Positions 4,447 through 43,580 of a DNA stretch of 46,575 nucleotides are shown one piece after another. Both the position numbers and the translations under genes were made by a program. The stretch is from a virus. The stretch is taken from IMG/VR virus record IMGVR_UViG_3300025316_001109, positions 1 through 46,575 of that record; one strand, 5' to 3'. Each line of letters opens with the position of its first letter. Within the stretch, counting starts at the first letter, position 1. Under the pieces are notes generated by a model that was not told where the DNA came from, did no database searches, and saw only the letters and a program-made list of their open reading frames with translations.

Positions 4447-4651
4447 GAATTGTATAGCCGCTGGTATTGGATTCCAGAATAAAGCAAAAGCATCTCTTGG
4501 CTCTTGGATAGTATTATCCGAATGGAAAAGAGATAGTAACCTCGGCTGGCAATTAGACCAGGTAAGAACAGCCAAAATAGACGGTGAGATTTTGAAAGCC
4601 GATACCTACTACGTGCTGCAAAACGGAGAATTCATTGGATCAGAAGATTAA
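4365..4651 (+). pseudogene. Detached C-terminal part of the repeat protein (frame +1)
   Basis: In this frame the repeats continue cleanly after the extra G (DEAHSATTG, DYAHSATTG, DEAHSATTG). They then pass into a closing domain (GENCIAAGIGFQNKAK, SWIVLSEW, YYVLQNGEFIG) of the sort that normally ends DUF7666-type repeat proteins. It has no start codon or ribosome site of its own. Removing one G at 4360-4364 joins it in frame to the gene beginning at 3442, giving a protein of about 400 residues. It is therefore the severed 3' end of that gene, whether by real slippage, phase variation or sequencing error. Confidence 0.7.
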
Positions 4652-19023: not shown

Positions 19024-19066
19024 GAGGTAGAGTGCTTTTAAAGGGTGCAAAGTACTCTCAAAAAAC

Positions 19067-19131
19067 TTATTAAATAGCGACAAAATCTTAAAACATAGCG
19101 ATTTTGTCGGTAACTTATTACTTTCCTTTGT
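19067..19131 (+). promoter_or_regulatory. Late promoter copy 1 (tandem 21-bp units)
   Basis: Two direct 21-bp units occupy 19067-19087 and 19088-19108, sharing the core AAATAGCGAC / ACATAGCGAT. The second ends in TTTGTC and runs into GGTAACTTATTACTTTCC then TTTG (to 19130). The TTTG-20 nt-TTTG layout resembles a Bacteroidetes promoter with a good -33 box and a poor -7 box, as expected if an activator bound to the units is required. Gene start at 19153. Confidence 0.75.
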
Positions 19132-19152
19132 GCTTTACAAAACTATGAGGTT

Positions 19153-19788
19153 ATGATTGAAGCTATTTTAAACATACTTTTCGGCGCTGGAGTAGCCGCC
19201 GCCTTTGACCCTCTGACCCTTGCTTCCCTTGCGCTGAGTTTAGGTGGCGGGGTTGCTTCCATGATTGGATCAGCCGGAGCGAACGCCAAAAGACAAGCAG
19301 CACTGGACGCACAAAAGGCTGAAAGTGACTCGTTTTTCAACAAAGAGTACTACACAGACGAGTTAAACCGCACGGAGAACCAATCCATGCTTCGTGAATT
19401 GACCAACCGGCTCAAAGACCAGAACAAGCAGAACCAAGCCACCGCAGCAATAACCGGAGCTACTCCCGAGGTAGCCGTAGCACAACAGGGCAACCTGAAC
19501 AAAGCTTATGCAGGGGTTGTGAATCAAATGGCAGGTAGAGCATCACAGCGCAAGGACATGGCCCTGCGAGGATGGAGAGCCGACAAACGCCAACTATTCG
19601 GAATGCAGGACGCGCTGGATCAGGGCGAAGCCAGCACTTGGCAAAATCTAGGCACGAACGCCGCCGGACTCGGGGCTAGTGCCATAGGGATAATGGGGGC
19701 GGATGCACCCTACGACCCTCTGAAAGATAAATCGCTAATGAGCGCAATCGAGTTTAAACCGGGTACTTTCAACCCACCATCACTATAA
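19153..19788 (+). CDS. Probable internal virion (ejection) protein, 211 aa
   Basis: Starts 22 nt downstream of the late promoter block. The N-terminus holds hydrophobic, glycine/alanine-rich segments (ILNILFGAGVAAAF; LASLALSLGGGVASMIGSAG), then a long Gln/Asn/Ala-rich helical region (NRLKDQNKQNQATAAITGAT), then GTNAAGLGASAIGIMG. Amphipathic glycine-zipper segments plus helices at this length resemble T7 gp14-type core proteins that insert into the outer membrane during ejection. It precedes another probable core protein and the giant polyvalent protein, an order expected for an ejection cassette. No sequence family is recognised with certainty. Confidence 0.6.
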   Translation: MIEAILNILFGAGVAAAFDPLTLASLALSLGGGVASMIGSAGANAKRQAALDAQKAESDSFFNKEYYTDELNRTENQSMLRELTNRLKDQNKQNQATAAITGATPEVAVAQQGNLNKAYAGVVNQMAGRASQRKDMALRGWRADKRQLFGMQDALDQGEASTWQNLGTNAAGLGASAIGIMGADAPYDPLKDKSLMSAIEFKPGTFNPPSL

Positions 19789-19793
19789 AAGCA

Positions 19794-20948
19794 ATGGCAC
19801 TCATAACTTTAGACGATCTTAAGCAAGCACCCGTGTCAGCCATTGACACACAACCGGCTGTTGTCAACGCGAACGTAGCGGATCAAACGACACAGGCCGT
19901 TATCCCGGATGTGAAACAAACTACCCCTGCACCGGTTGTTCCCGCGATCCAGCAAAAACAGATGACTGGAGGCATTGATAACGAGGCTACCAATACCAAA
20001 GTTACCTCCACTGATACATCGGGCGTTCAAGACCAGACTCTTCAAATGCTCAAAGCAATGAAAGATCAGGGGCTAACTTACAGTCAGGCGTTTGATAAAT
20101 ACTACCCCAAACCAACAGCTAACACTGCAAGCGAGGATTTAATTCGTAAACAGCAGAAAACAGCTTTGTTTGCCGATGCCCTTCGTTTGGTGACTGACAC
20201 GGTAGGTGCAGCCAAAGGAGCTACTGTTTACCAACGCGACCAGACAAAACCCTATGCAGCCTTACAAAACAGGCTTATGCAGGAACACGCCCTCTTTGCT
20301 AATAACATGGCAGACTGGCAAAGTAAAGGCGTTGACTCTGCAATGAAGGGCGTGTCACTCAGCAATGACCTCTACAAAGCTAACTTGCAGAATGCCCCTA
20401 AAACCACTATAGAGAATAACCAGTGGAACCGCAAGAAGTTTGAGCAGGAACAACAAGCCCTGAAAGACAAGCAGGCCAACGACAACAAGCAGAAAGAACT
20501 GGACCGTAAGAACCACATTACAACAGCCAACATAGCGCATGCAGGTAGCGGAGCCAACGATCCTAAAGTTACCCAGCTTGTCTTTGCTGACAATAACGGG
20601 GTTGCAGTAGTTCCCAACCATAAGTATGAGGGGCTAATGTCCGCAGCTTATCAGGCTATGTTGACCGACCCTAATTACAAGGGTAAGATAGACAGCCGGG
20701 AGATTGAAGCTATCACAAACGACTATTCCTTTGAGGGCAAGAAAGCGAAAGTACGTGAATACGTGCAACAACACGCGCACGAAAGCCCCGCAGCACAAGA
20801 GATTATAAAGGGTAACTCGGACAGATACACCCGTAATAACGTGGCAGCTCCAGCCCAAACAAACAATTGGGATAGTAGCCCCTTGAACGCCTTGAAAACC
20901 ATCCCCGGGTTTAGCGGCGGACACAAAAAGAAAGTAGAAGGATTTTAA
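19794..20948 (+). CDS. Probable internal virion protein, 384 aa
   Basis: Begins MALITLDDLKQAPVSA. A low-complexity Thr/Val/Gln-rich first quarter is followed by a helical middle (LQMLKAMKDQGLTYSQAFDKYY; KFEQEQQALKDKQANDN). The C-terminal part is compact (VAVVPNHKYEGLMSAAYQAM). It has no membrane segment. It sits 5 nt after the 211-aa protein and 11 nt before the giant gene, so the three are co-transcribed from the same late promoter. Composition and position fit an inner-core or scaffold-like virion protein; this is inference. Confidence 0.6.
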   Translation: MALITLDDLKQAPVSAIDTQPAVVNANVADQTTQAVIPDVKQTTPAPVVPAIQQKQMTGGIDNEATNTKVTSTDTSGVQDQTLQMLKAMKDQGLTYSQAFDKYYPKPTANTASEDLIRKQQKTALFADALRLVTDTVGAAKGATVYQRDQTKPYAALQNRLMQEHALFANNMADWQSKGVDSAMKGVSLSNDLYKANLQNAPKTTIENNQWNRKKFEQEQQALKDKQANDNKQKELDRKNHITTANIAHAGSGANDPKVTQLVFADNNGVAVVPNHKYEGLMSAAYQAMLTDPNYKGKIDSREIEAITNDYSFEGKKAKVREYVQQHAHESPAAQEIIKGNSDRYTRNNVAAPAQTNNWDSSPLNALKTIPGFSGGHKKKVEGF

Positions 20949-20959
20949 AACATAGGCCA

Positions 20960-23900
20960 ATGGCAGAACCATTATCTCAAACCCTTTATAACACCCTTAC
21001 AAAGGATGGTTATGATTTGGGGGACTACAATAGTTTCAGCGAAAAAGTAAGTAACCCGGCAAAGGCGAAAGTTCTTTATGACAGCATTACCAAAGACGGT
21101 TATGACGTTGGGGACTTCAATACCTTTCATTCCAAGGTAGCTACTCCTATGGCACGACCATCGGAGACAGCGGAAGTTAACCCATTCTTTACACCCGAGA
21201 TTGAACAGGGCGCAAAACAACCCGCTTCAATTGCAGTAACACCTACTACCAATATCCCAAGACAGGGACAGCTCGACTCAACCAGTAGCAATGCGCCGGT
21301 TACTGAGATACCCGCTAGTGAATTACCAGGGGATGAAGCAAATACTAACCGCATTAAAATACCAGATCTTAACTATGGAGTAACCCCTTTACAGAATGAT
21401 GCCATTCAGACAAGCGATAACTACCCTTCTATTAAACTAGACAATGCAAAGCAGAACATTATCCAGAATAGCCCGGCTGTAACTGTTGATAAACCACACG
21501 TTACCAAAGAAAAGAAATTCGACGAACGGGTGTTTGATAGTGCCGTTAGTTCAGTCAATGCCCTTGGTGGGGCAGTAGAGGGAGCTGTGGGCGACTACTT
21601 CAAAAAAATGAACGGTATATGGGGTGCTAAATGGATGGATGATCTGGGTGGTTGGTTTACCAAGCAGTCAGATGCTGTACAGGAAACAACCGAAAAGAAC
21701 GCACCCATAAAGTCAGGACTTCCTGAAATGGTAGGAAGTCTTTTACCGATAGCCGCCGCCACGGTAGCTGATGTCTACTCCGGTGGATTATTAACTCCTG
21801 CTATCATGAGTACCTTTGGTGCAAGTGGATACGGAGATGGTATAAGGGCTTATGATGACATAAAAAAGCAAACAGGAGGAGAAAGCAACGAGTACGCAAG
21901 AACCGGTGCGGGGCTGGCCTACTCGGTTATTATGCTTGGAACTATGAATGCTTTGGGTAAATTCGGGGTAAAAGGAGTTCAACAATTATCAAAGAGCCCA
22001 ATAATAACCAGAGCCATAGAATCAGTCTTTAAATCAAACCCTACCGCTTTTGAGGGTGGTGCGAGCGAACTAATGCAAGCGTATGCCAAAGCACAACCCA
22101 CATTTGCAAAACAATTACTCACGAATGGAATACACAGCGTAGCTACTATGGAGGGTATGGAACTCTCTAAAATGGGGGTTAATGCTGCCATCGGGCAACA
22201 TCAAACGTTACAGGACTGGACTAACACGGCCACGAGTGCAGCTGTTACGGGCGTATTGTTCACCATGGTTGCACCTTTCTCGATCAAATACGCTGATGCG
22301 GCCAACGTGTCTCGACGTAACGCGCAGGGCGAGGTCACAATCGGAATGAAGGGCGATATCCCCGTTGAGATAATTGATACTAAAGAGGGTAACAAAGGAC
22401 TCACGCCAGATAATAAACTGGTTGATATAGATCAAAATACTATTCAGAACTCTTTTACAATGACCACAAAGCATTTTAATCAAGTACTGGATAACCTAAA
22501 ACAAACAAAAACCATTGAACCAAACCTCGAGCGCAATGCTTTCGGTAATAGAGTAGCTCAGACCCTTACGAAACTACAATCATCTCCCGGAGTAATCACA
22601 ACCGCTGTTGATGCGCAGGGTAATAAAGCCTACGTGTCCGGAAAAGATAAGGACGGAAACTTAGTCGGCTTTGATGCTAATGGACAAATACAAGTCATTG
22701 ACCCTAACGCCAAACTTGAATCAGCACCAATCGGTTCAGTTCATGATGCTATTATGGGCAAATGGGATGAAGTAAATGGGAATGCAGCACCCAAACCAGA
22801 CTTAACCCCAAGAATAGAACAGGTAAAAGCAGATATTCAACAGCAACAGCAAGCCGCTACCCAGCAAATAACTGACATCGCTAACCGCGATACAGGGGCT
22901 GTGCAGACGGTGAAACTAGCGGACGGACGGGAAGTAAATCTAACCGGGGGAAATATAGCTCTTACTGAAGAAGGAAAGATTGATTTCTCCAACACGGACA
23001 AAGTGCTTTACTACCTTGATGAGAATGGTACAAAGCAAATGATTAGTTCGGATCAGGTGAATAGCCTGGTATCGCACACCCCCGTTGATCAAGCCATCGC
23101 ACAATCGCACGAACAGATCGCAAATGCAACCCTTGGTAAAGCAAATTATCAACGGGGAATGGCGGTAGTGCTACTTAACCCTGATGGCTCTCCACAACTG
23201 GGAGACACCGGCAAACCCGTATCAACCAAGTTGACAAACGTAACAGACAACGGTGTTGAGTTCACAACCGCTGATGGTCAACCTATGCAGCTTACCTTTG
23301 ACGAGGCTTACAAGATGCTGGGCCATGCTACTGACCACATGGACTACAAACCCGGACAGGCTTTTGACGTGGACGGGGTTACGCATGTTATCCAGCACCC
23401 TAACGCAGATGGCACTTACAAAGTAACGGCATTCCCGCAGGGTGCAGAGCCTTACGATGTGGACGTACCGGCGGAAGAAATAGACAAATTCGTACAGCCT
23501 TTGACAAATTCTGTCAAGACAGATGTTGTCAACTCCCAGCCACAAAAACAATTCCCACTTGACAAGGATGGTCAAATTGATTTCAATGCCATAACCGATC
23601 CTACCAACTTAGCAGATGCCTACACGCAAGAGTTCGGAGACCAAAGTAAGGGCATTATCGAGAAGTCAATTGAATACGTGCAAGGGCTTGTTGCAAAAGC
23701 GCAAGCTATCGAAGAGCCGGTAAAACAGTTACGGGAGCTAAAGAAAGCGCAGGGTAAACTTGATTTACTAAATGCAGCCAAAGGATTACTGGGCAGCGAC
23801 ACAATGCCTACTGAAGTATGGGCCGCCGAAGAAAACACCCCGGTGGAAACACCAATTCAAAACAATTCATTATCTTTGCCTGATAGATTTGACAACGCAA

Positions 23901-26900
23901 CTACCCTCGAAGAAAAGCACGCAGCGGCGGCAGAGATCGCGGATAAACTAGAGGGCTTATTCCCGGTTGCTAAAACAGCGGCTTTGTGTTCAACGCGTCA
24001 GGATTTCAAGAACGTGCTGGCAGAAAATAAGTCTAGTAAATTGTCAAAGGCGATTGACAAGGGTCTGGTGCAGGGTTGTTTCTGGAAGAATAAAGTATTT
24101 TTAAACTTGCAGGACATATCCAACACAGCCGAACTAGTGGTTACGTGGGCACACGAACAGGCTCATGCAATCGTGGATCGTACGTTTACAAAACAGGAGC
24201 TGGAGGATTTATATGCAAGCACGGACAAAGCGGTCATAATCGATCTGCTTCCCGATGCAGACCTAACAAATAGCCCGGATGTACAAGCCAATGAGGCTAT
24301 TGCATACGCAATAGAACGTATATTCGGTACAAGTGAACCCGAGGCGTTAGCCACTGGTTCGGTGCAAGTGCCTGAGGCAATAGCCGGACAAAAGGATTTA
24401 TCGGAAAAAGTAATTAAGGTTTTACAAATACTAACTAACAATACAAACCATGGTACGAATATCAGCGACGGAAGCGGGCAAGCACTTCACGATGCAAATA
24501 ACCCAGAAACAGAGCGACCGGTTGACGGAACTGCTGAGCAAGGAGCCTCAACCAATATCGGAGGACAGGCGGATGGACTTGATCCTGCAAGCAGCGGACG
24601 AGTTCCCGGAACCGGAGGAATAAAACCCGCCCATGCAATTGGTGAGGAAGTAGTTTACCAAGGGGGGAATTATAAAGTAAACGCCGTTGGCCACGATGTA
24701 AGTACGGGTGAGGTGATTTATGATCTGGACACACTGGATGGTAAAGTAGCACACGAAGATGTACCGCAGGGAGAGCTAAACAAAGATGAGGCGGTAACCG
24801 TTACCCCGGTAACGGAACCATCGCTCACCCAGCAACGGGATGAACTGCAAGCTAAGTCTGATGCACTTCGTGCGCAGGCTTCAACAGCGGACAAGGCTGA
24901 AAGTGCTAAACTGTATGGACAAGCGGGAGCGTTGAATAAACGTATCAAAGCCCTTAATGAACAAATTGCAGCGGAAGAGTCCGCTAAGATTGCCACAAGT
25001 ATTGCCGAGCAAGAACCTAACCTAAGCCCAACAGAGGCACAACAGCTCGCGGGTAATTACAAAAAGGCTCATATTACCGTGCAGGGCATGGATGTCACCG
25101 TGGAGAACCCTAAAGGCTCTACACGATCAGGCGTTGATGAAGATGGCAAGGAGTGGGAGCATGTTATGAACTCCCATTACGGTTACTTCAAACGTACCGA
25201 GGGCAAAGACGGAGATCACATCGATGTATTTGTAGGCGATAACCCTATAAGTGAAAAAATCTTTGTTGTAGATCAGACCAAGAAAGGCACGGGTGTATTC
25301 CCCGCCTTTGACGAGTCTAAAGTTATGCTGGGTTATAATTCACCCGAGGAAGCCAAAGCGGCTTACATGGAGAATTATGACAAAGACTGGGACGGCTTCT
25401 ATGCCATCACAGAAGTAGGAGTTGAGGATTTCAAGAAATGGTTATATGATGGTGCAAAGCAGCATAAACCTTTCCACGAGTATAAAGAAACGCCTGCACC
25501 AGTTGAAAAGGTTGATCCCCAGAAACAAACAGAACTTGATTTTGTAAAGGGAGCACCTTTAGATAGTTTTACAGTTAGACACTCGGCTAACAATCTGGAT
25601 CAAACTTTTATTCTGACTGATAAAAAGGTACAGCGTGATCGTGAAACAGGGATAAGTAACCCTTTCCAGATATATACCTTCTCAAAATATGATAGCGGGG
25701 AAACCTTTTTAAACCGGTATAACTCCTTTGAAACACTTGAAGATGCTAAACGCATGATGGAGTGGTACAAAAAAGAGGGCACAGTGGATAGCGGGCTACA
25801 ACCTATAAGGCGTTATGAGGGTAAGAACTCCGATGGAGTTGCCGAAAGCACGGTAAAAATAGCAGTAAAAAAAGGCGAACTCGATAAAGCTTACGACTGG
25901 ACATGGAAACCGTACCCATCAACAAGAGCAGGTAAAGGCTATGCTATTGGAAGATTGATAGAAGAGGCAGTAGAACTTTGGAAAACCCCCTACGAGAAAG
26001 CATCAGATAAAGACGGGCACGAAGAGGCTATAAGAGAAGCTCTCAAAGCAGGAAGGCTGGACGTCGAGACCTACAACAGGCTTCATGGCATAGATTACGG
26101 AATGTATGGAGGGCAGGGGTTTGTTAGAAATTTCAGCGAAGCATTGAAACCTGCTATTGACTATACCAGTGCTAGAAATAACTTTATAAAAAAGTCTGTA
26201 TCGCCGGCAACGAAAAAGATACTGGATACCCTTGAAAAGCAATTAGATGGAACACTTAAAACAAAAGCACGAAGCATAGAAGAGTTAGCAAACAGAGGTA
26301 TCTTTGCAAACGAAAAAACAGAACTTGTAGCTAAACGGGCAAAATCATCGGACGAGAATGCCATATGGTCGTCAACTGGATACTATATTAATTCAGAGGA
26401 AACAAAATTTACCCTCAACGGGTATTATGTATCAAAAACAGAATACGAGTACTCGAAATACTTAAAAAGCATAGTCAAACAAGAAACGGAAAAACTCGCT
26501 GTCGTTTATACCGATGGCAGAACACCAGAGGGTAAAAAAGCTCTTATCGATGCCATCAAAGCTAAATTTGAGGCTAACAAGAAAGATGAACCGAGATTTA
26601 GACAACAAATAAAAGAGGTAGAACGTTTTAATAAAATAACAGCACCCAATGGAACCATCTTACAAGATAATGAACACGCGAACGAACATTCTAGACGAAA
26701 GTCTCAAGGAAGAGTATCATCTGACCAAACCGAAGGGCAAAGTGCCGAAGAGTGGGAAAAAGAAAACTGGGAGCGTTTCGCAGAAACCGCCAAAGGCTAC
26801 GTAAATCAAGTATCGAAGGGCTATCTAAGTCCTGAAGACCTATATGACCTATTTTCTATTTTCAAATCATTGCGCAAATACGCCTATGACACAGCGGATT

Positions 26901-29900: not shown

Positions 29901-32900
29901 ATGCGTGGGCCAAGTCAGGGGCAAACCCTTATGCCGAAGAGATGGCAAACTACTACAACACAACTTTCAACGCTGTTGTACCTAAGACAGTAGATGCTTC
30001 TTCTTTCGAGAGTTTCCCCGGTGCTTCCAGAGTGAAGATACCACGCGAACACCAAAAAGAAGGTACACTGCGTACCCTTGAAGCTGCAACCCTTTTAGCG
30101 CATGAGGTAGGAACGGGTAAAACCATCACCCTTATTTCGTCCGCTATGGAGATGCGCCGCCTTGGTATTGCCAAAAAGCCTTGTATTGTGGTGCAACGTT
30201 CAACCTACGACCAATTTGTAAAAGAGATTAAAGAACTTTACCCACAGGCGAAAGTACTTGTACCCTCAGCAAAAGACCTAACGGCAGCACAGCGCGAACA
30301 GTTATTTGCTAAAATAGCTTACAATGACTGGGATATAGTAGTGCTTTATCACGGTTATCTTGACAGTATTCCGGATGATCCAGATAGGGTTAACCAGTAC
30401 ATTGATGAACACATTCAGGAGAAAATCGACCTGATGAACGAGGTAAGAGCTAGCAGCGACCCTAACGCAAAACGTATGGCCAGCGGTATTGAGAAAGAAA
30501 TTAAAGGACTTGAAGAGCGCAAAACTCCATCGGTTAAGCAGGAAGAAAAGACCAAAGCCAAAGCAAGCGCAAAGGCGGAGAAATTACTTGACCGCCGCAC
30601 TGACAACGGTATGACTTTTGAACAGCTGGGCATTGACGCTTTACTTGTTGACGAGGCACACGCCTATAAAAAGCTAGGATTCTCCACTTCATTAAAAGGA
30701 GTTAAAGGGATTGACGTAGGAGCTTCGCAACGTGCCCAGAGTTTGAGACTTAAGAGTTCATATATCCTAGAAAATAATAACGGCAAGAATGTAGTTTTTG
30801 CAACGGGCACACCTATCTCCAACACGATGGCAGAGATGTGGACGTTCCTGCGTTATTTGCTTCCTAAGTCGGAACTTGACCGGCTACAAATGACTAACTT
30901 CGATTCCTTTGTGAATAACTTTGGAACAATTGAGGAGTCGTCCGAATTTTCAACTAGTGGCAAATTCAAAGTAACTAACCGCTTCTCCAGTTTCTCCAAC
31001 GTGCCTGAACTTATTCAGGCGTGGAAACAGATAGCGCATACTGTGCTGACTGAAGAAGTGGCTACCCTTAAAGAAGGGGTAGGAACACCCCGCGTTGAGT
31101 CCGGCAAACCTATTGATAATATGCTTAAACAGACATTGCCCCTTAAAATGGTAATGAAAAGCATTAAACAGCGGTTACAGGACTTCGAGAATATGACGGG
31201 TAAGGAGAAAAAAGAAAACTCGCATATACCTCTTGTTATGTTCGGGCTTGCCAAACGTGCCGCTATTGACGTTCGCCTTGTTGATCCTAACTTACCCGAC
31301 GACCCGAACAGCAAATTGAATGAAACGGTAAAAGCCGTTTTAAGTGACCTTAAAGACACGAAAGATTATAAAGGTACTGTTGCTGTATTCTGCGATTCCT
31401 ATCAAAGCAGCGATAAAGGATTCAATGTATTTGAGGATATTAAACAGAAACTTATTGACGAGGGTATTCCAGCCGAGCAAATAGCCATCGTGAACGACTA
31501 TACCACTGATGAAAAGAAAAGCGTATTGTGGACAAAAGTAAATGCAGGAGATGTAAGGGTCGTAATGGGTACAACCGAGAAACTCGGTGTTGGGGTAAAC
31601 ATACAACAACGCCTTCACACGCTTATACACATGGATGCGCCGGTCCGCCCAAGCGATTACCAGCAACGTAACGGACGTATTATGCGCCAAGGTAACGATC
31701 ATTTACCAATGGATAAAACCATCAAAATACTTCGTATCGGTGTAGAGCAGACCCTTGATGTAACCGGCTATCAACGACTTGAAATTAAAAAGAAGTTTAT
31801 TGACCAGATTATGAAGGGCGATGTTTCTCACCGTAGCCTTGATGAGGCAGAGGTGGAAGGCAGCGACTCGAACAACTTCTCTCAAATGATGGCCTCTTTA
31901 TCAGGATCACAGGCCGCGCTTGCATACTCTATCGAGCAAAACAAACTTCGCAAGCTGCAAAATGCCAGTGAGTACCACGACAAGAACCAAATATTTATGT
32001 CGTCCGAGGTCAAAAGGAACGAAAACATAATAAAAACTACCGGCGGGATAATTGACGGTTTACAAAAGCAGCGTGCAGAAGTGAAGGCTATCTTCCCTGA
32101 TGGGCGCGTGTTGTCAGTTACTATCGGTAATACCGAGGTTAAAACCACGGAAGAGATTGACGGACTTATAGCTAAAACCCTAACAAAACGCATTGACAAA
32201 GAGGTTGAGGATTTGCGGGTGGACATGGAGCGTGAAACAGCGGAGATTAAAACATCAATGCTTATTAATGGTAAGAAGTTCAATCTGACCGTAAATATCA
32301 AACGTGATTACGATGTGGTCAATCACAAAACACGTGTATCCAGACAAATAGATTACCAAAGCGCGGACTACGCTGACCTGAATGGGAGTGCCGGAGCAAA
32401 GGTGGAAAATCTGATTGGTATAGTGAATGACTTTATATCGTTACGCGGATTCGATGAAGACATTCGTAAACGCGGTATAGGGGTTGAAAAAGCTATCCGG
32501 GAAAATGAAGCGTATAAACCTCAGATCGGACAGCCGTTCCCTAAACAAAAAGAAATTGAGGCGGCTGAGAAACGTGCGGAGGAACTCGATGCGCAAATGC
32601 GCAAGGAACTAGCAGAGATTGAAGCTAAAGAAGCCGCTGAAAATGTGCAGGCGGTAGATATCAGTGCAGGACTAGAGGAAGAAGAACCCCGCTTTAGACA
32701 AGTAACTCTGCCCGTAAAACCAAAATTTGAAGGTGACTTGAAAGCCTATTCACAGGCTATGAAAGAATACCAGGATAAGGCAAGCGAGGTATTACCGGAA
32801 CTAGCGCAAGAACTCGATACGGCTTTTAGCAATGCCAAAGATGAGTTCTTACGCAAACGCCAAGATGCTGACCGGTTTATTAAACTACAACAACGCTTTG

Positions 32901-35752: not shown

Positions 35753-35755
35753 ACG

Positions 35756-35790
35756 AAAGAAAACCCTGCATTACGTAGGGTTTTCTTTTT
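35756..35790 (+). terminator. Bidirectional terminator after the giant gene
   Basis: AAAGAAAACCCT (35756-35767) pairs perfectly over 12 bp with AGGGTTTTCTTT (35777-35788), with a 9-nt loop and a trailing TT. The A-rich 5' side makes it usable from the opposite strand too, where the lipoprotein gene converges. Confidence 0.85.
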
Positions 35791-35793
35791 ACC

Positions 35794-36198
35794 CTACTGT
35801 TTCTTTACAAGGTATCTCCCTTTCCTTATCACACTTATCTCTTTGTATAGTTTTACCCCTTTGGAGTAATAGTAGACCACAATAACAGCATTCTGTGAGT
35901 CATAATAGGTCGTACCCATAGCGGGAAAATCCACAGACAATGTTCCGTTCCCACTTCCTGACAATGGAGAAACACTTAACCCCGGTACCCTGCCGGATGC
36001 CCCTGCGTTATTCATGTACACAGTCCAAGTAGTGTTTGACTTAATACTCACTGGCAAGGGTCCGCTGGAACTACCGAGAGATAAAGAGCCGGGGCTTACA
36101 ACAAGGGATGTTGTTGTATCCGTTCCATTTAAAGCCGGTTCGTTGCTTGTACAGCTAAATAAGAGGAATACAATTAATAAGAGTATTAGTTTTTTCAT
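35794..36198 (-). CDS. BACON-like lipoprotein (probable lysogenic-conversion gene)
   Basis: A 134-residue protein with a lipoprotein signal (MKKLILLLIVFLLFSC, lipobox Cys16). The mature part matches the BACON/immunoglobulin-like pattern of Bacteroidetes surface proteins: LVVSPGSLSLGSSSGPLPVS, NTTWTVYM, LSVSPLSGSGNGTLSVDFPA and VIVVYYYSKG. It would be exported and anchored in the outer membrane or on the surface. It is minus-strand between two plus-strand late operons and has its own host-type -7 box at 36225-36218, so it can be expressed in the lysogen. Possible roles are superinfection exclusion by masking a receptor, or glycan binding; neither is demonstrated. Confidence 0.85.
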   Translation of the reverse strand: MKKLILLLIVFLLFSCTSNEPALNGTDTTTSLVVSPGSLSLGSSSGPLPVSIKSNTTWTVYMNNAGASGRVPGLSVSPLSGSGNGTLSVDFPAMGTTYYDSQNAVIVVYYYSKGVKLYKEISVIRKGRYLVKKQ

Positions 36199-36217
36199 AT
36201 TTTATAAATTTAGTTTG

Positions 36218-36225
36218 CAAATATA
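36218..36225 (-). promoter_or_regulatory. Host-type promoter for the BACON lipoprotein gene
   Basis: On the minus strand the sequence reads TATATTTG, an exact Bacteroidetes -7 box, 20 nt before the lipoprotein ATG. No clear -33 TTTG is visible. It lies back to back with late promoter copy 2 (units from 36240), so expression from the two directions may compete. Confidence 0.6.
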
Positions 36226-36239
36226 ACACAATTTCTTTA

Positions 36240-36306
36240 TTAAAACATAGCAACAAAATCTTAAAACATAGCGACTTTGTCGGTAACTTATTAATTTCCT
36301 TTGTGC
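36240..36306 (+). promoter_or_regulatory. Late promoter copy 2 (tandem 21-bp units)
   Basis: Units at 36240-36260 and 36261-36281, both beginning TTAAAACATAGC and differing only in the second half (AACAAAATC versus GACTTTGTC). They are followed by GGTAACTTATTAATTTCC and TTTG at 36299-36302. This is the best-conserved of the three copies and precedes the portal gene start by 44 nt. Confidence 0.78.
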
Positions 36307-36324
36307 AGACATACCTATACCATC

Positions 36325-38322
36325 ATGGCTGCACCAGTAAACTATAAGAAATTCAATAAGAAGGCAGTAATGCCTCAGGCAAAACCTAAAGAACCCGTAC
36401 GTTTTGAACAGGGGTTCAACTCACTCGAGAAGTGGGATAATATGGGCCGACTGCTGAAGTACAAAGATATGTACGATAAGCTGTACAATTTCCGCAAGAA
36501 CCGCCAACGTAACATTGACTATGCCTCGGGTAACCAGTGGGGTGACCTAATGGAAGACCCGGACAGCCCTTACGCAGGGAAAGCCATTACCGAAGAGATG
36601 TATATCAAAAGGCAGGGGAAAGTTCCGCTAAAGAATAACCTTATCATGCCGCTTATTAAGTCGGTTATAGGTACATTCAGGGGAAACAAAACTGAGCCGG
36701 TAGCCATTGCCCGGGATAGGGACGAGCAGAAAGTGGGCGAAATGATGAGTATTGCTATGCAGTACGCCTACCAGCTCAACGATGTGTGGGAGCTTGACGC
36801 GGAGGCGTTAACCGAGTATGTAATGTCAGGGTTTTGTGTACAAAAAGTATCACGCAAATGGTTTAAAGACCGCCGGATATACGATGCTTATGTGGAGTGT
36901 GTGAACCCTTCCGTGTGTTTCTTCAACTCTGACATGGTGGACGTTCGAGGGGATGATTTAAAAACGTTTGGCATACTCAAAGACCTTAGCATGGCTGAGA
37001 TACTCAGCGTGTATGCAAAGACGAAGGAGGATGCTATCCGAATCCGCTCACTCTATGTGAACATGGATGAGAAACTACCGGCCCAATACGATGCTTTCTC
37101 CAGCAAACGCTTTCAGAATATGGACTTCTTTATTCCTTCGGAACAAAGTATGTGCCGGGTTGTTGAAGCGTGGGAGCTGGAATACAAAGAACGACTACGC
37201 ATACATGATACATTAATAGGCGAGCCGGATGTTATTGAGCTAAACCAACGCGCTGAACTTGTGGACAAGGTAAATGCACAGCGCATAGCGGATGCAGTAG
37301 CGCAGGGAGTAGCCGCGGAAGATGTACCACTGATTGAAGCCGAGTGGTTTATTGACCAGTTTTGGTATGTTCGCATATTGACCCCAACGGGTGAGGCATT
37401 GTGGGAGGGTGAAACACCTTTTGAACATCTCAGTCAACCTTTCTGTCACAAAGCATCGCTTATCAACGGCAAAATACAATCTTTCGTAGAGGACGTGATC
37501 GACCAACAGCGGTATATCAACCGACTGGTAACTATGATTGACTTCATTATGGGGGCCAGTGCCAAAGGGGTACTTATATTCCCTGATGATGGTACGCTTA
37601 CCGAGAATGATAAATCTGAAATTCTGGAAGAGTGGGTAAAATATAACGGGGTAATCTTTGCCAAACTCAAACCAGGTGCAACAATGCCACAACAGGTAAG
37701 TACCAACGCTACGAACGTGGGGGCTTATGAGCTGCTTAATATCCAGCTTAAACTGATGAATGACATATCAGGAGTACACGGAGCTATGCAGGGGCAAGCA
37801 CCGCAAGCGGGAACGCCAGCGGCCATGTATGCACAAGAGAGCCAGAACTCAGCAACGAATTTAGCTGACCTGTACGAACGGTTTAACTCGTTCCGCAGAC
37901 AAAGGGACTACATGCTGATGAAACTGATACAGCAGTACTACGATTCACCGAGATATATCAATATAGCGGGTAAGGATTACAGCGAAGAAAGCAAATTCTA
38001 TACGCCTGACAAGGTAAGGGATTGCGAGTTTGATGTGGTGGTAGCTGAAAGCCCGAGTACTCCGGCTTACCGTACGATCATGAACGGCTTCTTATTGCAG
38101 CTATTCCAACAACAAGCCATTGACGTGAAGACTTTACTTGAGAACTCGGCTTATCCGTTCGCTGATCGGGTGCTAAACTCCATACAGCGCAAAGAGGATG
38201 AAATGAAACAAGCACAGGGGGGAGCAGTACCGCAGGGCGGAGGTGCACCGATAGAAGTACCGCCGGAAGTACAACAAGGCGTGAACCCTCTAGTGGGTCA
38301 AATGCTAAAAGGGGCTGCTTAG
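36325..38322 (+). CDS. Portal protein
   Basis: A 665-residue portal of the P22/podovirus-like type, forming the dodecameric DNA entry ring at the capsid vertex. The start is ATG 36325 (MAAPVNYKKFNKK); upstream in-frame codons overlap the late promoter. Typical features are RNIDYASGNQWGD near the start, MPLIKSVIGTFRGNK, the stem region around EGETPFEHLSQPF, DVIDQQRYINRLVTMIDFI, SGVHGAMQGQ and the C-terminal Gly/Pro/Gln-rich tail. It is alone in its transcription unit between the late promoter and a terminator that overlaps the stop. Confidence 0.9.
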   Translation: MAAPVNYKKFNKKAVMPQAKPKEPVRFEQGFNSLEKWDNMGRLLKYKDMYDKLYNFRKNRQRNIDYASGNQWGDLMEDPDSPYAGKAITEEMYIKRQGKVPLKNNLIMPLIKSVIGTFRGNKTEPVAIARDRDEQKVGEMMSIAMQYAYQLNDVWELDAEALTEYVMSGFCVQKVSRKWFKDRRIYDAYVECVNPSVCFFNSDMVDVRGDDLKTFGILKDLSMAEILSVYAKTKEDAIRIRSLYVNMDEKLPAQYDAFSSKRFQNMDFFIPSEQSMCRVVEAWELEYKERLRIHDTLIGEPDVIELNQRAELVDKVNAQRIADAVAQGVAAEDVPLIEAEWFIDQFWYVRILTPTGEALWEGETPFEHLSQPFCHKASLINGKIQSFVEDVIDQQRYINRLVTMIDFIMGASAKGVLIFPDDGTLTENDKSEILEEWVKYNGVIFAKLKPGATMPQQVSTNATNVGAYELLNIQLKLMNDISGVHGAMQGQAPQAGTPAAMYAQESQNSATNLADLYERFNSFRRQRDYMLMKLIQQYYDSPRYINIAGKDYSEESKFYTPDKVRDCEFDVVVAESPSTPAYRTIMNGFLLQLFQQQAIDVKTLLENSAYPFADRVLNSIQRKEDEMKQAQGGAVPQGGGAPIEVPPEVQQGVNPLVGQMLKGAA

Positions 38323-38332
38323 CCCCTTTTTG
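38307..38332 (+). terminator. Rho-independent terminator overlapping the portal stop codon
   Basis: AAAAGGGGCT (38307-38316) pairs with AGCCCCTTTT (38321-38330) around loop GCTT, followed by TG. The portal stop TAG (38320-38322) lies inside it. It separates the portal unit from the convergent minus-strand packaging cluster. Confidence 0.88.
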
Positions 38333-38407
38333 TTGTGAATACTTAGCGGAATATCCGCAGAAGTCGCCACCTGGAAAGTCGCAACCTCCTACTATGTTTT
38401 CTGACTA

Positions 38408-38512
38408 TCATAATGGTAACAACCCTATAACAAAGTTTCCAATGATAGAAATAACTATCAGTATAATACTGGCTATCAATAGCCATTTATTAGGAATTTC
38501 TTCTTTAGTCAT
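38408..38512 (-). CDS. Tiny single-pass membrane protein (34 aa)
   Basis: Reads MTKEEIPNKWLLIASIILIV and continues ISIIGNFVIG: a short polar start and one strong hydrophobic helix of about 22 residues. Its ATG overlaps the stop of the upstream minus gene by four bases (ATGA at 38512-38509), the same coupling used throughout this phage, which supports it as a real gene. It is the last gene of the packaging cluster. The size and topology would suit a pinholin-like or lysis-accessory role, but that is only an inference. Confidence 0.6.
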   Translation of the reverse strand: MTKEEIPNKWLLIASIILIVISIIGNFVIGLLPL

Positions 38513-38994
38513 AACTTTTTCTTCCCCCTTCTTGTTTTCTCCATATACCAGAGCCAAGCAGCCGCTTTGGCTTCTCTCTCTATAGGAGTGAGGCCACCCG
38601 TGTTATTAAGTTTTGCGGGGGTGTAATAAAAACACTCTTTCATAATATCCAAATGACCGGCTTTAGGACTCATGTTGTAAATCTTCTCTACTTTTAAACC
38701 GCCTTTGACGTATTTCTTTTTGATCGAGCCGTCTTTCATCTTCTTTTCAAAGTAGTGACCTTTCTCAAAATACTTGCGCCTAATTGGCTTTTTGAGCTGA
38801 TCCATTTCATCCGGACACAGTACTTGCAGCTTATCGGCAAAATCAACCATAACAAAATACTGCTTGTTGTGAGCACGTTGCTTACTGTCTGCTATGTAGA
38901 CAGCAAGTTTTAAACGATAGCCATCGTACTTAAGACGGGCTAAAAGCAAGGTAGTTGCCCAAGAGTTGAGCAGGAAGCTTTTAATTTGTTTCAT
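38509..38994 (-). CDS. Hypothetical basic protein of the packaging cluster (161 aa)
   Basis: Begins MKQIKSFLLNSWATTLLLARLKYDGYRLKL. The first ~70 residues alternate beta strands with a helix (KQYFVMVDFADKLQVL). A very basic middle follows (KKPIRRKYFEKGHYFEKKMK), and then HLDIMKECFYYTPAKLNNTG with a basic end GKKKL. I recall proteins of this style next to terminases in Bacteroidales phages but cannot name the family. It is coupled to the 34-aa membrane protein downstream and lies 4 nt after the 86-aa gene. A structural or packaging accessory role is likely. Confidence 0.65.
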   Translation of the reverse strand: MKQIKSFLLNSWATTLLLARLKYDGYRLKLAVYIADSKQRAHNKQYFVMVDFADKLQVLCPDEMDQLKKPIRRKYFEKGHYFEKKMKDGSIKKKYVKGGLKVEKIYNMSPKAGHLDIMKECFYYTPAKLNNTGGLTPIEREAKAAAWLWYMEKTRRGKKKL

Positions 38995-38998
38995 GGGG

Positions 38999-39259
38999 TT
39001 AATCTATTTTAATTTCAGACATTTGCTTTTCTATTTTTTCTATCTCTACCCTGTTTAAAAGTATCATCGCCTCGGAAATAGCCAACCAGTCTTCAAAAGG
39101 TATTTGAGTTGTGACACCATCGCCATCGGTAACGGGGCAATAGTAGAGGTCATTCTCTTTGTAGAACTTCATTGCCGCTTCTGTTCCTTGAATAACATCT
39201 TTGAGAGCTTCAATCTTTAGTTGCAAGGCGTAAGCCTGTTGATACTTTTTTACATTCAT
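38999..39259 (-). CDS. Small coiled-coil protein (86 aa), packaging cluster
   Basis: Begins MNVKKYQQAYALQLKIEALKD. Two helices with heptad-like spacing (residues 1-35 and 60-84: AMILLNRVEIEKIEKQMSEI) flank a short beta-like middle (DLYYCPVTDGDGVTTQIPFE). It directly follows the terminase large subunit gene (6 nt apart). It may be a terminase accessory or assembly chaperone; no family is recognised. Confidence 0.65.
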   Translation of the reverse strand: MNVKKYQQAYALQLKIEALKDVIQGTEAAMKFYKENDLYYCPVTDGDGVTTQIPFEDWLAISEAMILLNRVEIEKIEKQMSEIKID

Positions 39260-39265
39260 AGTTTT

Positions 39266-41257
39266 TTATATTGTGGCTTCCCCTACTATTTTGCGGGAAT
39301 AGCCGGTTGATTTAGTTGTTTCAATAAGTTGAGGAGCGGGGAGATACTGGTAACACACCCACACCCCGATAGCACGTGTTATGTGCCTGTCATCACGGCA
39401 ACCCTCGACAGCACCCAATGACCCGTTTTCTTTTACTTCCAGTGTGTCATGTTCATCACATGCCGCAATACTGTTTTCAATGTAAAGGTCTTCACGCAAA
39501 GCCTTCTTGTGGTGGTCACAAACCATCTGTTTACTGCTTCGGTTAGTATGAAATCCCCATCGAGCCGGGACACCCTCCCTTATTTTATCTGCCGGAGTCC
39601 GCGAGAATAAGTTTGGGTAAGCGTCTGCTATCTCATCCAGAATATATTCAAAGTGATCACCCTCTGTTTCTTCTGTTTCCAGCGTGTTGGACTCAATAAC
39701 AAGTAGAGAGTTATGGTAGAACTTCGCTATTTGTGCTGCTTTCCACGCCAGTAAATCGTGATCGATATGTCCGCACCACTCAGCCACTACTTCAGGAACT
39801 CCACCCTGTGCCATCCACATACGATCAATAACCGTGATACAACTATTATCAGCTGCCTCACTCCTACCCCCAATATCCACGACGGTAACGTAACGCTGGG
39901 TGTATCGCTCTGCACCCGGTTTAGCCCACACCAACATATTTCCTTCTGCTTCCTCGCGGAATGCCAAGCCTTGTAACGACTCTTTGCCGTTTACACTCTT
40001 ACCGTAAACCTCACCTACAAAAAGAGGCTTCATGCAGCCCTTGCGTAATCTGTCCACGTCCCCGATAGGGTAGAACCTACGACCCGTTGACTGGAAAGCC
40101 TCCACATCATTTGACGGCATTTCGGAAATGAACCGCCACTCGTCACTGTACGCTTTGCGTTGTTCGCGATACCAGTTAATACCTTCGAGGGTTGCACCAT
40201 CTGAAAACATCCGATGCTCTTTCTCGCTCATGCTGTCAATGAACTTCTTGTAGTTGTCTATACTTGACTGGTAGAGTTCAATGTCGAACCACGCCACAAA
40301 CACCGGATCAAAGCCGCTTTCGCCTTTCTTAGCTCTCAGCCATTCACGGTGAAAGAAATTACCCACCCCTTTGGCTGTACTCTCATACACAATCATAGAG
40401 TCGGGCATATTACCAATACCGGAAACAATAGACTGTACAAGGTCTTCGGGTTTTTTCCCTGCTGTTGCAGCCCAGAGTCCGACCTCTGATAAGTGAGCCA
40501 TTGCCGTATCATCACCACGAACACCATCGGGTTTCTCGGCAGAGCCTATTGTTATGCGACAAGCACGTTCTTTTACTTGCCGTGTTTTCTGTGAGTTCTC
40601 AAAGGGGACCAGGTTAAGGGGCTTTATTGTATCCTCATCAAGTAACCAAGTGGGGTAACTCTTTAGTAACTTGCTGTACATTCCCCTGATTACCTTTGCC
40701 GTGTTCTCAACGTGGGCACAAATAACACTGTGCCATTGGCGGCGGCGTACGAGTTGTATCCAGATCATAAAGAGCTGTACAAGGGTTGAACCGCCCCACT
40801 GGCGTGCTTTCAGTAATATAATTCGTATTGGCTTGCCCTCAAGCCACGCCTTGTATAATCTTTTGAGTAGCTTGCGTTGCCCCCGATTAAGGTAAAAGGG
40901 TATGTCTTCTGAGGAGTTCTTTTTCTTTATTACCGCAAATTCATACGCCCAGTACTCAAAATCGAAAGCAATACGCAGTTTTATAAATTGTCGCCATACT
41001 TCCTCTTTTGCCGCCTCGGTTGGCTCTTCCTTTAGCAGGATAAGAAGCCTTTTAATTGTACCCGCTTTGACCAGAGCTTTAACAAGCGGCGTTGCCAGCA
41101 TACCTTCGGGAAGATACATTTTAGCAATTGGCGCATCCGGTAGTTCGACCAGAACCCGTTGACAACTTTCGCACCCCTCACCCGTTAGCGGGTTATAGAC
41201 GGCACGGTTGGCTTTTAATCGCCGCTTGTTCTCTGCTATGATCTCAATATAGGTCAT
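39266..41257 (-). CDS. terL: Terminase large subunit
   Basis: The DNA-packaging motor, 663 residues. The ATPase domain has the adenine-binding-like NRGQRKLLKRL, a Walker A variant KARQWGGSTLVQ near residue 150, and motif-II/III-like DSMIVYESTAKGVGNFFH. The RNase H-like nuclease domain has TVVDIGGRSEAADNS (first Asp), LLVIESNTLE (Glu) and DRHITRAIGVW (last Asp). An N-terminal extension carries a CESC pair. It lies on the minus strand in a cluster with a rhomboid protease, opposite in direction to portal and capsid genes, an unusual order for a phage. Confidence 0.93.
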   Translation of the reverse strand: MTYIEIIAENKRRLKANRAVYNPLTGEGCESCQRVLVELPDAPIAKMYLPEGMLATPLVKALVKAGTIKRLLILLKEEPTEAAKEEVWRQFIKLRIAFDFEYWAYEFAVIKKKNSSEDIPFYLNRGQRKLLKRLYKAWLEGKPIRIILLKARQWGGSTLVQLFMIWIQLVRRRQWHSVICAHVENTAKVIRGMYSKLLKSYPTWLLDEDTIKPLNLVPFENSQKTRQVKERACRITIGSAEKPDGVRGDDTAMAHLSEVGLWAATAGKKPEDLVQSIVSGIGNMPDSMIVYESTAKGVGNFFHREWLRAKKGESGFDPVFVAWFDIELYQSSIDNYKKFIDSMSEKEHRMFSDGATLEGINWYREQRKAYSDEWRFISEMPSNDVEAFQSTGRRFYPIGDVDRLRKGCMKPLFVGEVYGKSVNGKESLQGLAFREEAEGNMLVWAKPGAERYTQRYVTVVDIGGRSEAADNSCITVIDRMWMAQGGVPEVVAEWCGHIDHDLLAWKAAQIAKFYHNSLLVIESNTLETEETEGDHFEYILDEIADAYPNLFSRTPADKIREGVPARWGFHTNRSSKQMVCDHHKKALREDLYIENSIAACDEHDTLEVKENGSLGAVEGCRDDRHITRAIGVWVCYQYLPAPQLIETTKSTGYSRKIVGEATI

Positions 41258-41455
41258 TCTTGTTTCTTTAAAAATACGGGGGATGTAGCTCTCCCGCGGG
41301 CTCGTTATACAGCCATTCTTAGCGACTGGTTAAACATTGGAATTGTTTTGCCTGTTATCGGCTACTAAGCTCTCCGTTAGACATAATCATCTGCTGTCAA
41401 AACCAAACAAACAAACAAACAAACTTTACTTAAAACATCAACGAACTAAGTTTCT
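41258..41455 (-). other. Gap upstream of terL: hairpin and (TTTG)5 microsatellite
   Basis: This 198-nt gap within the minus-strand cluster has no ORF. It holds a 6-bp hairpin near 41278-41295 (GGGGGA/TCTCCC), an adjacent CCCGCGGG palindrome, and five tandem CAAA units at 41404-41423, read on the terL strand as TTTGTTTG... repeats, each a potential -33 box. A promoter or slippage-controlled switch for terL is possible; neither is proven. Confidence 0.4.
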
Positions 41456-41719
41456 TTAATTTTGATTTGCAATCAAACAGTTTACCGCCTGTAACTCTGC
41501 TTCGTATGATTCTTTCAGTAGAGGGATTATTTGTTCTGAGGTGAAAGGGTTAAGCATAAACAGGTCATCGACCAGTCCGCCAAGTTTAACCATGGGTACA
41601 CCTTCTTCCCCCTGAATATCGTTGTTTAGCTCCGCAAGAAGCTCCACGCGTTCCTTTATCACCTCCAGCTTAATTTTAAGCTCCTTCATTTCCTGTTTTT
41701 GCTCTTTTGTCTTTTTCAT
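41456..41719 (-). CDS. Coiled-coil small protein (87 aa), packaging cluster
   Basis: Begins MKKTKEQKQEMKELKIKLEV. The first 35 residues are a highly charged coiled coil, followed by a short turn (QGEEGVPMVKLGG) and two helices (FTSEQIIPLLKESYEAELQAV). Its start overlaps the rhomboid gene 3' end by 44 nt, unusually long here; an internal ATG (MKELKIKL) would shorten the overlap to 14 nt. Unknown function. Confidence 0.65.
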   Translation of the reverse strand: MKKTKEQKQEMKELKIKLEVIKERVELLAELNNDIQGEEGVPMVKLGGLVDDLFMLNPFTSEQIIPLLKESYEAELQAVNCLIANQN

Positions 41720-42188
41720 AAAATCGGTATATTAGCATGAATAAAATTCCGTACAACATGGAGAAAGCGTGAATAAATATATTTGTGTGAGCAAAGTAGT
41801 AAGTGAGTAAGTTGACCGCTACAAAGACAGCCAAGTATATCAGTAAATTCCGGCTGGGGTAAAGAACCACGTAGCATCCGAATAGGAACAGTACGACCCC
41901 CGATGCACCAATAGTGGGTTGTGGCATCTCTGCCCCGAAAGTGGCGAGGTATGCGCCCAGTATCATCACAAAAAAAAGTAGTTTAGAGTTGACCGACCGT
42001 TGCATAGTAGTAAAAAGGAAATGGAACGAAAGCATATTCATGAATAAGTGGAAAAAGGCTATGTGTGTAAACATATAAGTGAGTCTTGTGTAGAGTTCTG
42101 TGTGTGCCGTAAAGCCCAGCACTTTCACATCCGCCCCGAAAGAGATCAGATACACGCAAAAGCAAATTAGTATAAAGAGATTTTTCAT
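41676..42188 (-). CDS. Rhomboid-family intramembrane serine protease
   Basis: A 170-residue polytopic membrane protein with six hydrophobic segments. The rhomboid signatures are in order: YMFTHIAFFHLFMNM in TM2 (His47 and Asn51, the oxyanion-hole pair), PTIGASGVV in TM4 (GxSG nucleophile Ser96) and FIHAFSMLYG in TM6 (catalytic His140). The length is that of the minimal bacterial rhomboid core. The enzyme should cleave transmembrane helices in the inner membrane. It is encoded between unknown small genes and terL on the same strand, so it is likely expressed in the lytic phase. Its substrate is unknown. Rhomboids are rare in phages. Confidence 0.85.
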   Translation of the reverse strand: MKNLFILICFCVYLISFGADVKVLGFTAHTELYTRLTYMFTHIAFFHLFMNMLSFHFLFTTMQRSVNSKLLFFVMILGAYLATFGAEMPQPTIGASGVVLFLFGCYVVLYPSRNLLIYLAVFVAVNLLTYYFAHTNIFIHAFSMLYGILFMLIYRFYEKDKRAKTGNEGA

Positions 42189-42194
42189 ATTGTT

Positions 42195-42605
42195 TTACAT
42201 TGTTTTATTACATTTTTTCTTACCACTACTCAATTTCCAGAAAAGTACACAGGCACTCGACAGCTCCATGTAAAAGCATTCAGCGGGTTGCTTGACTACT
42301 TCTTCAATCACGTCCATCTTAGACACCCCCTTCAACTCCTCTTTGAGAACTATGTATTTGCGGTATATTGCCTCATACTGCCTCTGCTTCATCCGGTGCT
42401 TACTTCCGGTTGTGCCCCTGCGCTCAATATGGTTAATGTGTTCCGCCGCTTCTTCGGGGGTTGTGTAATATCGAGGTGCTTGTGAATTGATAGCTAAATC
42501 AACCAACGACTCACGTGTCATTTGACAAGCTCTTGCCCCAAGTTGTTTTATAACATTGCGGTAGGCTGTCAGTAAGTCCTGATCGCGTTCCTGTCGTAGC
42601 TCCAT
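42195..42605 (-). CDS. Hypothetical protein (136 aa), head of the packaging cluster
   Basis: Begins MELRQERDQDLLTAYRNVIK. The N-terminal half is helical with an HTH-like stretch (CQMTRESLVDLAINSQAPRYYTTPEEAAEHINHI). A basic segment follows (GSKHRMKQRQYEAIYRKYIVL), and the C-terminus is hydrophobic (CFYMELSSACVLFWKL). It is first in the minus-strand cluster and divergent from late promoter copy 3; on its own strand only an imperfect -7 box (TTATTTTG) is seen just upstream. It might be a DNA-binding packaging accessory. I do not recognise it. Confidence 0.65.
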   Translation of the reverse strand: MELRQERDQDLLTAYRNVIKQLGARACQMTRESLVDLAINSQAPRYYTTPEEAAEHINHIERRGTTGSKHRMKQRQYEAIYRKYIVLKEELKGVSKMDVIEEVVKQPAECFYMELSSACVLFWKLSSGKKKCNKTM

Positions 42606-42647
42606 AAGTAACCGTTTCGATTTGACAACAAAATAACCTACACTTTC

Positions 42648-42710
42648 TTAAAACTTAGCGACATTTCATTAAAACATAGCGACTTTGTCGGTAACTTCTT
42701 TCCGTACTTT
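42648..42710 (+). promoter_or_regulatory. Late promoter copy 3 (tandem 21-bp units)
   Basis: Units at 42648-42668 (TTAAAACTTAGCGACATTTCA) and 42669-42689 (TTAAAACATAGCGACTTTGTC), again exactly 21 bp apart, followed by GGTAACTTCTTTCCG and TACTTTG. The second unit is identical to that of copy 2. It drives scaffold and capsid genes; the scaffold ATG is 60 nt downstream. Confidence 0.75.
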
Positions 42711-42749
42711 GCTTTCACTTTGAATACCCAAAATATAACCAGACTTAAA

Positions 42750-43580
42750 ATGGAAGGACTAGACGAAAACGCGGTACCGGAAACCACCGAAACTGCACAG
42801 CCTAAATCAGCTAACGAGCTTTTTGCAGAGCGAATTAAAGCCAAATACCCTGAACGGGATTACTCGAACCCTGACGAAGTTCACAACGCTTCGATGGAGG
42901 GCTACGATGCTGAACACGAACGTTTGAAAAAAGTGATCGAAAGCAACAAAGCGATTGCGGATCGTATGATGGCAGACCCAAAAGCAGCTGCTGCCTTATC
43001 GGAATTTATGAGCGGTAAACCGCTGCCTGCAGCTTTGAAAAAATACTTTACCGATGATGAGCTATCAATGAATGAGGGGGAAGATGGCTATGCTGAGTAT
43101 TTGGCAGCACAACAAGAGCGCGCGCTTAAAGATGCAGAGAGCAAACAAGCTCAGCAAGAGTTCGCAGATAACTTCGAGAAGAGCCATGAGGAGATCGCTG
43201 CCTATGCCGAAGAAACCGGACGGACAGAAGAGGAAATGACACAGTTTCTGGACGATGTTCAAAAAACTTTCTTCGACCCTTTATTAAAAGGGCAGTGGGG
43301 TAAAGCCTTTTTAGTTATGTGCGATAAAGCTATGAGTCATGACAAAGATGTAGAGGTGGCACAGGAAGTAGGGCGCGTTTCAGGTAAAAACGAAAAGATC
43401 GTTGACCGCAAAAAAGAACGTACAGCTGGGGGCTTACCCGATGCAGGGGCTGGCGGCGGGGCTGCAAATGCAGCGATAGCAGCTAAACCGACTGAGACCG
43501 GGCAGTTCTTCAATAAACTGGCGGATGCCGGGGCTGAAAAAGACATTTGGAAACGCGGCGGTTACGGAAAGAAAGCCTAA
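42750..43580 (+). CDS. Scaffolding protein (probable)
   Basis: The start is ATG 42750 (MEGLDENAVPETTETAQ); a TTG 30 nt earlier is less likely. The 276-residue product is acidic and almost entirely helical (ANELFAERIKAKYPERDYS, ADRMMADPKAAAALSEFMSG, QQEFADNFEKSHEEIAAYAEE). It has a Gly/Ala-rich hinge near 240 (GGLPDAGAGGGAANAA) and a short basic C-terminal hook (DIWKRGGYGKKA). Acidic helix-rich body, flexible hinge, basic tail and a position immediately before the major capsid gene are the hallmarks of podovirus scaffolds. Confidence 0.8.
   Translation: MEGLDENAVPETTETAQPKSANELFAERIKAKYPERDYSNPDEVHNASMEGYDAEHERLKKVIESNKAIADRMMADPKAAAALSEFMSGKPLPAALKKYFTDDELSMNEGEDGYAEYLAAQQERALKDAESKQAQQEFADNFEKSHEEIAAYAEETGRTEEEMTQFLDDVQKTFFDPLLKGQWGKAFLVMCDKAMSHDKDVEVAQEVGRVSGKNEKIVDRKKERTAGGLPDAGAGGGAANAAIAAKPTETGQFFNKLADAGAEKDIWKRGGYGKKA

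Follow-up and report, generated by a model that had tools for sequence, protein, structure and literature searches.

Replacement of part of a host promoter by the binding site of a phage factor is exemplified by the middle promoters of T4, in which a MotA box near -30 takes the place of the missing -35 box and the host -10 box is kept. In P2/P4 and Mu, a phage activator (Ogr and C, respectively) binds ahead of several late promoters in the same genome; the Ogr sites, dyads near -55, are recognized by a zinc-finger protein. Firmicutes phages have late regulators of the RinA/ArpU type, small helix-turn-helix (HTH) proteins whose genes lie shortly ahead of the small terminase gene. The primary promoters of Bacteroides, read with sigma-ABfr, carry TTTG near -33 and TAnnTTTG near -7 (PMC7366714). 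A late-gene activation system for Bacteroides phages was not found in the literature searched, and when placed against that literature the elements analyzed here form a new class of promoter, though its general kind is known.

As in T4 middle promoters, a predicted phage-factor site stands in for the missing box and the host -7/-10 box is kept; unlike in T4, the site would lie near -42 beside a Bacteroidota -7 box, and no MotA or AsiA homologue was seen. With P2/P4 Ogr and Mu C the elements share an upstream site at several late promoters of one genome, whereas the family element described below is asymmetric and placed elsewhere than Ogr sites. The TGT-N12-ACA dyad found near -55 for P2 Ogr does not occur in the aligned sites, where the dyad is instead GAC-N3-GTC over the second of two repeated units. 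The -7 box is that of the sigma-ABfr promoters (PMC7366714), from which the elements differ by a phage-specific element in place of the -33 TTTG.

Tandem elements between divergent genes

The window, meaning the whole stretch of DNA analyzed, is a 46,575-base IMG/VR record of a temperate phage with genes for an integrase, a CI-like repressor, DNA polymerase A, a DarB-like giant protein, a P22-like portal, terminase, and capsid. A preliminary description had placed three tandem 21-bp copies here and read them as a phage-specific late promoter with two stacked activator sites. Direct reading and a repeat search bear out the copies themselves, with two 21-bp units head to tail at 19067-19108, 36240-36281, and 42648-42689 (Table 1). 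At three or fewer mismatches, TTAAAACATAGCGAC has six matches in the window, all on the plus strand and all of them tandem units, with no further copy anywhere, the early/CI region included; over 100 shuffles the mean was 1.9 matches, and six was never reached. Unit 2 is nearer to the consensus than unit 1 in all three copies and is followed by GTCGGTAACTT, and the distance from the G of GTCG to TTTG is exactly 21 nt each time. The missing or displaced TA of the -7 box was also correctly described, being absent in copies 1 and 2 (TTCCTTTG) and shifted by one in copy 3 (GTACTTTG). The plus-strand ATGs of the virion genes (19153, 36325, and 42750) follow the end of unit 2 by 44, 43, and 60 nt. 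Unit 2 makes up the left side of the dyad TAGCGACTtNGTCGsTA, which is imperfect in copy 1 and perfect in a relative, G001.

All three copies sit between two divergent genes, a point absent from the preliminary description. The minus-strand ATGs (19023, 36198, and 42605) lie 42 to 44 nt from unit 1, each with a -7 box of its own. Copies 1 and 2 share a 67-nt match that breaks off at the -7 box. In G001 and in L006 the portal gene directly follows the giant gene, and the window has a lipoprotein gene and a promoter inserted there. Given this gapless place in relatives and the 67-nt likeness to copy 1, copy 2 appears to be a promoter that was duplicated along with, or into, the inserted cargo gene.

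Table 1. Units, promoter boxes, and neighboring genes of the three tandem elements in the window
Feature	Positions	Strand	Basis or remark
Copy 1, unit 1 (21 bp)	19067..19087	+	Direct reading, repeat search, mismatch scan
Copy 1, unit 2 (21 bp)	19088..19108	+	Repeat search; in register with family element
Copy 1, imperfect dyad TAGCGATTTTGTCGGTA over unit 2	19096..19112	no strand	Perfect in G001
Copy 1, plus -7 box TTCCTTTG	19123..19130	+	TTTG 21 nt after GTCG
Copy 1, minus -7 box CAAAGTAC	19048..19055	-	Minus-strand reading TACTTTG; CAAA at -58 in five of six sites
Copy 2, unit 1	36240..36260	+	Direct reading, mismatch scan
Copy 2, unit 2	36261..36281	+	Direct reading, mismatch scan
Copy 2, plus -7 box TTCCTTTG	36296..36303	+	Aligned clade sites
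Copy 2, minus -7 box CAAATATA = TATATTTG, consensus	36218..36225	-	Aligned clade sites
Copy 3, unit 1	42648..42668	+	Direct reading, mismatch scan
Copy 3, unit 2	42669..42689	+	Direct reading, mismatch scan
Copy 3, plus -7 box GTACTTTG	42704..42711	+	Aligned clade sites
Copy 3, minus -7 box CAAAATAA	42629..42636	-	Aligned clade sites
Candidate activator, 103-aa helical HTH protein	17571..17882	+	Near end of early operon
Divergent gene, probable small terminase	18514..19023	-	Named by position; HTH-like N-terminus; G001 counterpart 48% identical
First gene of gp1 / 19794 / DarB-like (4930 aa) operon	19153..19788	+	Conserved late gene
Divergent lipoprotein, between DarB-like and portal genes	35794..36198	-	Weak viral BACON match
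P22-like portal protein	36325..38322	+	PF16510, E 2.7e-39
Large terminase	39266-41257		Named from its relatives
Rhomboid	41676-42188		
Divergent conserved gene ahead of rhomboid and large terminase	42195..42605	-	
Scaffold-like gene, then major capsid gene 43615-44979	42750..43580	+	

The window clade

Additional insight is gained from two relatives, the IMG/VR records 3300028549_001432 (G001), whose portal is 67-68% identical to that of the window, and 3300020045_013439 (L019). The tandem-type element occurs in G001 at 30830 and 56620, the two homologous places, and in L019 ahead of its scaffold gene, so that the clade comprises six promoters with the three of the window. Both relatives keep the tandem and the dyad, AGCGAyTTnGTCGsTAA is conserved across the six promoters, and the 21 nt from GTCG to TTTG are invariant in all of them. 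On the other side, CAAA (TTTG on the minus strand) stands 58 nt before GTCG in five of the six sites and 61 nt before it in the sixth. Two units 21 bp apart are present in five of six sites; the site at G001 30830 has one recognizable unit, without unit 1, yet keeps the 76-nt architecture. An exact 22-mer scan of IMG/VR found nothing, and a degenerate 17-mer scan gave 35 matches, 3 of them in promoter context (two in G001 and one in L019). Among 393 genomes of the order Bacteroidales, none has the window-type pattern.

A single-element family in Bacteroidales prophages

Capsid alignment led to 72 viral and 30 genome loci, and about 60 Bacteroidales prophage loci carry a single element in the equivalent place. 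In nearly every aligned locus, GTWAAWAGWTAAA is followed by 23 nt and then by TAnnTTTG. The element is asymmetric, 13 bp long, and A+T-rich, with near-invariant G positions, and in most loci it stands alone between a minus gene, rhomboid, and large terminase reading one way and scaffold and capsid reading the other. The minus box is exact in 33 of 44 family loci and lies 8 to 12 nt from the element, most often 11.

The spacing to the plus box is strict. In ten genomes, 44 element/box pairs have a spacing of 23 (32 with a perfect box), about ten of which are not independent because the scaffold promoters used to train the position weight matrix (PWM) include the ones in scanned genomes; every other spacing from 10 to 39 gives 0 to 3 pairs, and Markov-shuffled genomes give 0. 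Each genome has three to six sites, ahead of TerS/gp57, portal, scaffold-MCP, lysis, and tail operons. Every assignable family site precedes a late operon and none stands before early genes. A blind scan of IMG/VR with a strict form of the pattern returned 68 places. Contigs of this phage group account for 55, about 50 of them shortly before a late gene, and for most of the remainder no gene follows. The family pattern is confined to prophages in five host genomes, with a reversed-pattern control of 0.

The family is varied in its details. Opposite late promoters are interleaved near the small terminase gene in G005, G017, G010, BKO1-TP3, and BS-TP4; at L128 15377-15429 (G005), two opposed promoters driving TerS-like and gp57 genes have boxes about 20 bp apart, with each element beyond the -7 box of the other. 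In the L131-L137 clade (G006 and G009) the corresponding late promoters carry another element, ACGATAAAAAATG or a similar sequence, which lies close to the -7 box or past it and is inverted at the capsid promoter; regulation consequently varies within the family. Bacteroides phage BF1-TP2 (L011 16960-17060, record 39149-39184) has an 18-bp tandem (GATAACGATACAAGCCCC / CATAACGATAAATCTTAC) at its homologue of the divergent promoter, perhaps an independent duplication.

Relation of the tandem to the single element

In unit 2 of the window, 23 nt lie between the end of TTAAAACATAGC and the -7 octamer, as in the family, and this spacing is fixed in six of six clade sites. The best local match to the family PWM is in register in all three window copies, with scores of 1.3 to 3.5 against a training minimum of 7.9. 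Unit 2 is accordingly placed as the family element is and is predicted to work like it, without being a member of the family by sequence. About 11 nt separate unit 1 from the minus box, and the boxes, mostly 55 nt apart in the family, are 75 to 76 nt apart in the window clade, one 21-bp unit more. The tandem (about 76 = 55 + 21 bp between opposed boxes) most likely arose by a duplication of two helical turns. It can be envisaged that the ancestral site was duplicated by exactly this length in the window clade, after which unit 2 would have kept the ancestral 23 nt to the plus box and unit 1 the ancestral 11 nt to the minus box. Unit 1, being still at the ancestral distance from the opposite promoter, may serve that one.

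These relations bear on the earlier proposal that two activator sites, centered at about -42 and -63 on the same DNA face, both touch polymerase at the plus promoter, with the minus genes as bystanders. The 21-bp phase in five of six clade sites is consistent with it, as are centers that fit a class II plus a class I position and a unit 2 that is always nearer to the consensus. However, the relatives use a single site, G001 30830 holds the 76-nt architecture without a recognizable unit 1, and unit 1 stands at the family distance (11) from the minus box; we regard the stacked arrangement as possible but doubtful.

Two further kinds of element were considered and set aside. The dyad could fold into a hairpin (3-nt loop), as in an N4-like promoter for a virion RNA polymerase, but relatives are without it, and a search of the 4930-aa protein (DarB-like, helicase, methylase, LPD38) showed no RNA polymerase domain. 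Terminator and replication iteron readings were dropped because the positions of the element are tied to opposed -7 boxes.

Late promoters predicted to depend on a phage activator

The -33-region TTTG is practically absent in 46 family sites and the host -7 box is kept, and the promoters should consequently be weak alone. The element differs less within a genome than between genomes (2.61 versus 3.61 differences, p=0.0005), as exemplified by GTAAGAA in all G013 sites and GTTAAyrGATAACG in all G012 sites; such coherence was not seen in the spacer (p=0.06) or in the upstream flank (p=0.18). Within-genome coherence of this kind has the look of coevolution with a phage-specific binding protein and points to a phage-encoded factor. 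It would not be expected of an UP element for host polymerase. An UP-like element, or a site for a host regulator used by phages sharing hosts, would accord with the A+T-rich composition and the proximal UP position, but it is highly improbable considering this phage-specific coherence, the near-invariant G positions, the confinement to prophages in the five host genomes, and the lack of the window type in the order-wide survey.

We consider it likely, from position, spacing, and conservation, that the window and family elements are activator-dependent phage late promoters with a site near -42. With the host-type -7 box kept and the -33 box lost or weakened, they would be poorly used by host polymerase alone, and a phage-encoded activator bound just upstream would replace the -33 box. 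If the start is a few bases after the box, as we infer, the family site would be centered near -42, which is the position of a class II activator. The reading as a phage-specific late promoter with an activator site, as first proposed, has good support in the wider family from the fixed 23-nt spacing, the missing -33 box, the restriction to late genes, and the within-genome coherence, together with the confinement to prophages in the five host genomes and the lack of the window type in the 393 Bacteroidales genomes.

An operator is also conceivable, at which a repressor such as the CI-like protein encoded at 1724-2398 would silence late genes in the lysogen. The phage does encode such an S24 repressor, and the dyad overlaps the -33 region; yet promoters lacking a -33 box would have little need of silencing, operators do not usually keep so strict a spacing (23 nt), and the early/CI region is without a copy, which together make this reading improbable.

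For an activator, the divergent arrangement could have a further consequence. At the capsid promoter the same site overlaps the -33 region of the divergent promoter as well, and one bound factor could therefore influence both directions. It could be speculated that a single-site phage factor between back-to-back promoters acts as a late directional switch, turning the capsid operon on and covering the -33 region in front of the opposed packaging operon, and that the exact two-turn duplication in the window clade split both jobs onto two sites; we put this forward tentatively.

Candidate activators

Two HTH proteins of the window, at 2832-3122 and 17571-17882, are common to the clade with G001. 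The first is 79% identical in G001, lies near the repressor, and is HTH_17/excisionase-like. The protein at 17571-17882 is the leading candidate activator: its G001 homologue, about 40% identical, is at the same place, close to the small terminase gene, which is the usual place of late regulators. It was one of two HTH proteins put forward in the preliminary description; the other, at 12060, looks Cox/excisionase-like and has no match in G001. The leading candidate resembles RinA/ArpU in being a small HTH protein whose gene lies shortly ahead of a small terminase gene, and differs in that no sequence match to those families was found in Pfam, PHROGs, and NCBIfam. The model, built from a two-sequence alignment, is a helical HTH with a mean pLDDT of 79; Foldseek gave no PDB match below E 1, and VIA-align gave weak matches to sigma region 4, Spo0A, and DnaA-type domains, with Z scores of 4.3 to 6.4 that lie below the range carrying much weight for helical proteins. 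Searches for relatives of this protein and of the terminase-like protein gave only G001.

No candidate activator conserved in both the window clade and the wider group was found. Bac_DnaA_C is scattered across 22 records and missing from type-B genomes, and no single regulator family consequently explains all. A 78-aa conserved family (FLFGRKYYANIV...ETVSFRSR), encoded in the type-B Bacteroides phage BKO1-TP3 (L017) at 15971-16207 just before the tail late promoter, is present by phylogenetic profile in nine of nine type-B genomes covering the place and in no other type tested. Its product has no recognizable DNA-binding domain and no known domain; by presence and position the gene fits as a candidate for the wider group.

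A promoter class recognizable solely by its pattern could aid late-gene annotation and the tracking of induction across a large group of Bacteroidales prophages, and it might be a source of inducible promoters for use in gut Bacteroides. Finding the activator becomes a defined problem, and the common divergent architecture offers a natural series for the evolution of promoter spacing in whole helical turns.

Other repeats in the window

Two repeat arrays lie inside open reading frames (ORFs). At 4171-4470, nine 27-nt repeats (HSATTG.YA) occur in ORF 3442-4446. A single 28-nt interval among them changes the reading frame within the array, so that the ORF ends; the gene may be phase-variable or broken, or the assembly may have slipped. 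At 45295-45431, six 18-nt repeats (EEVNPT) occur in ORF 45052-45561.
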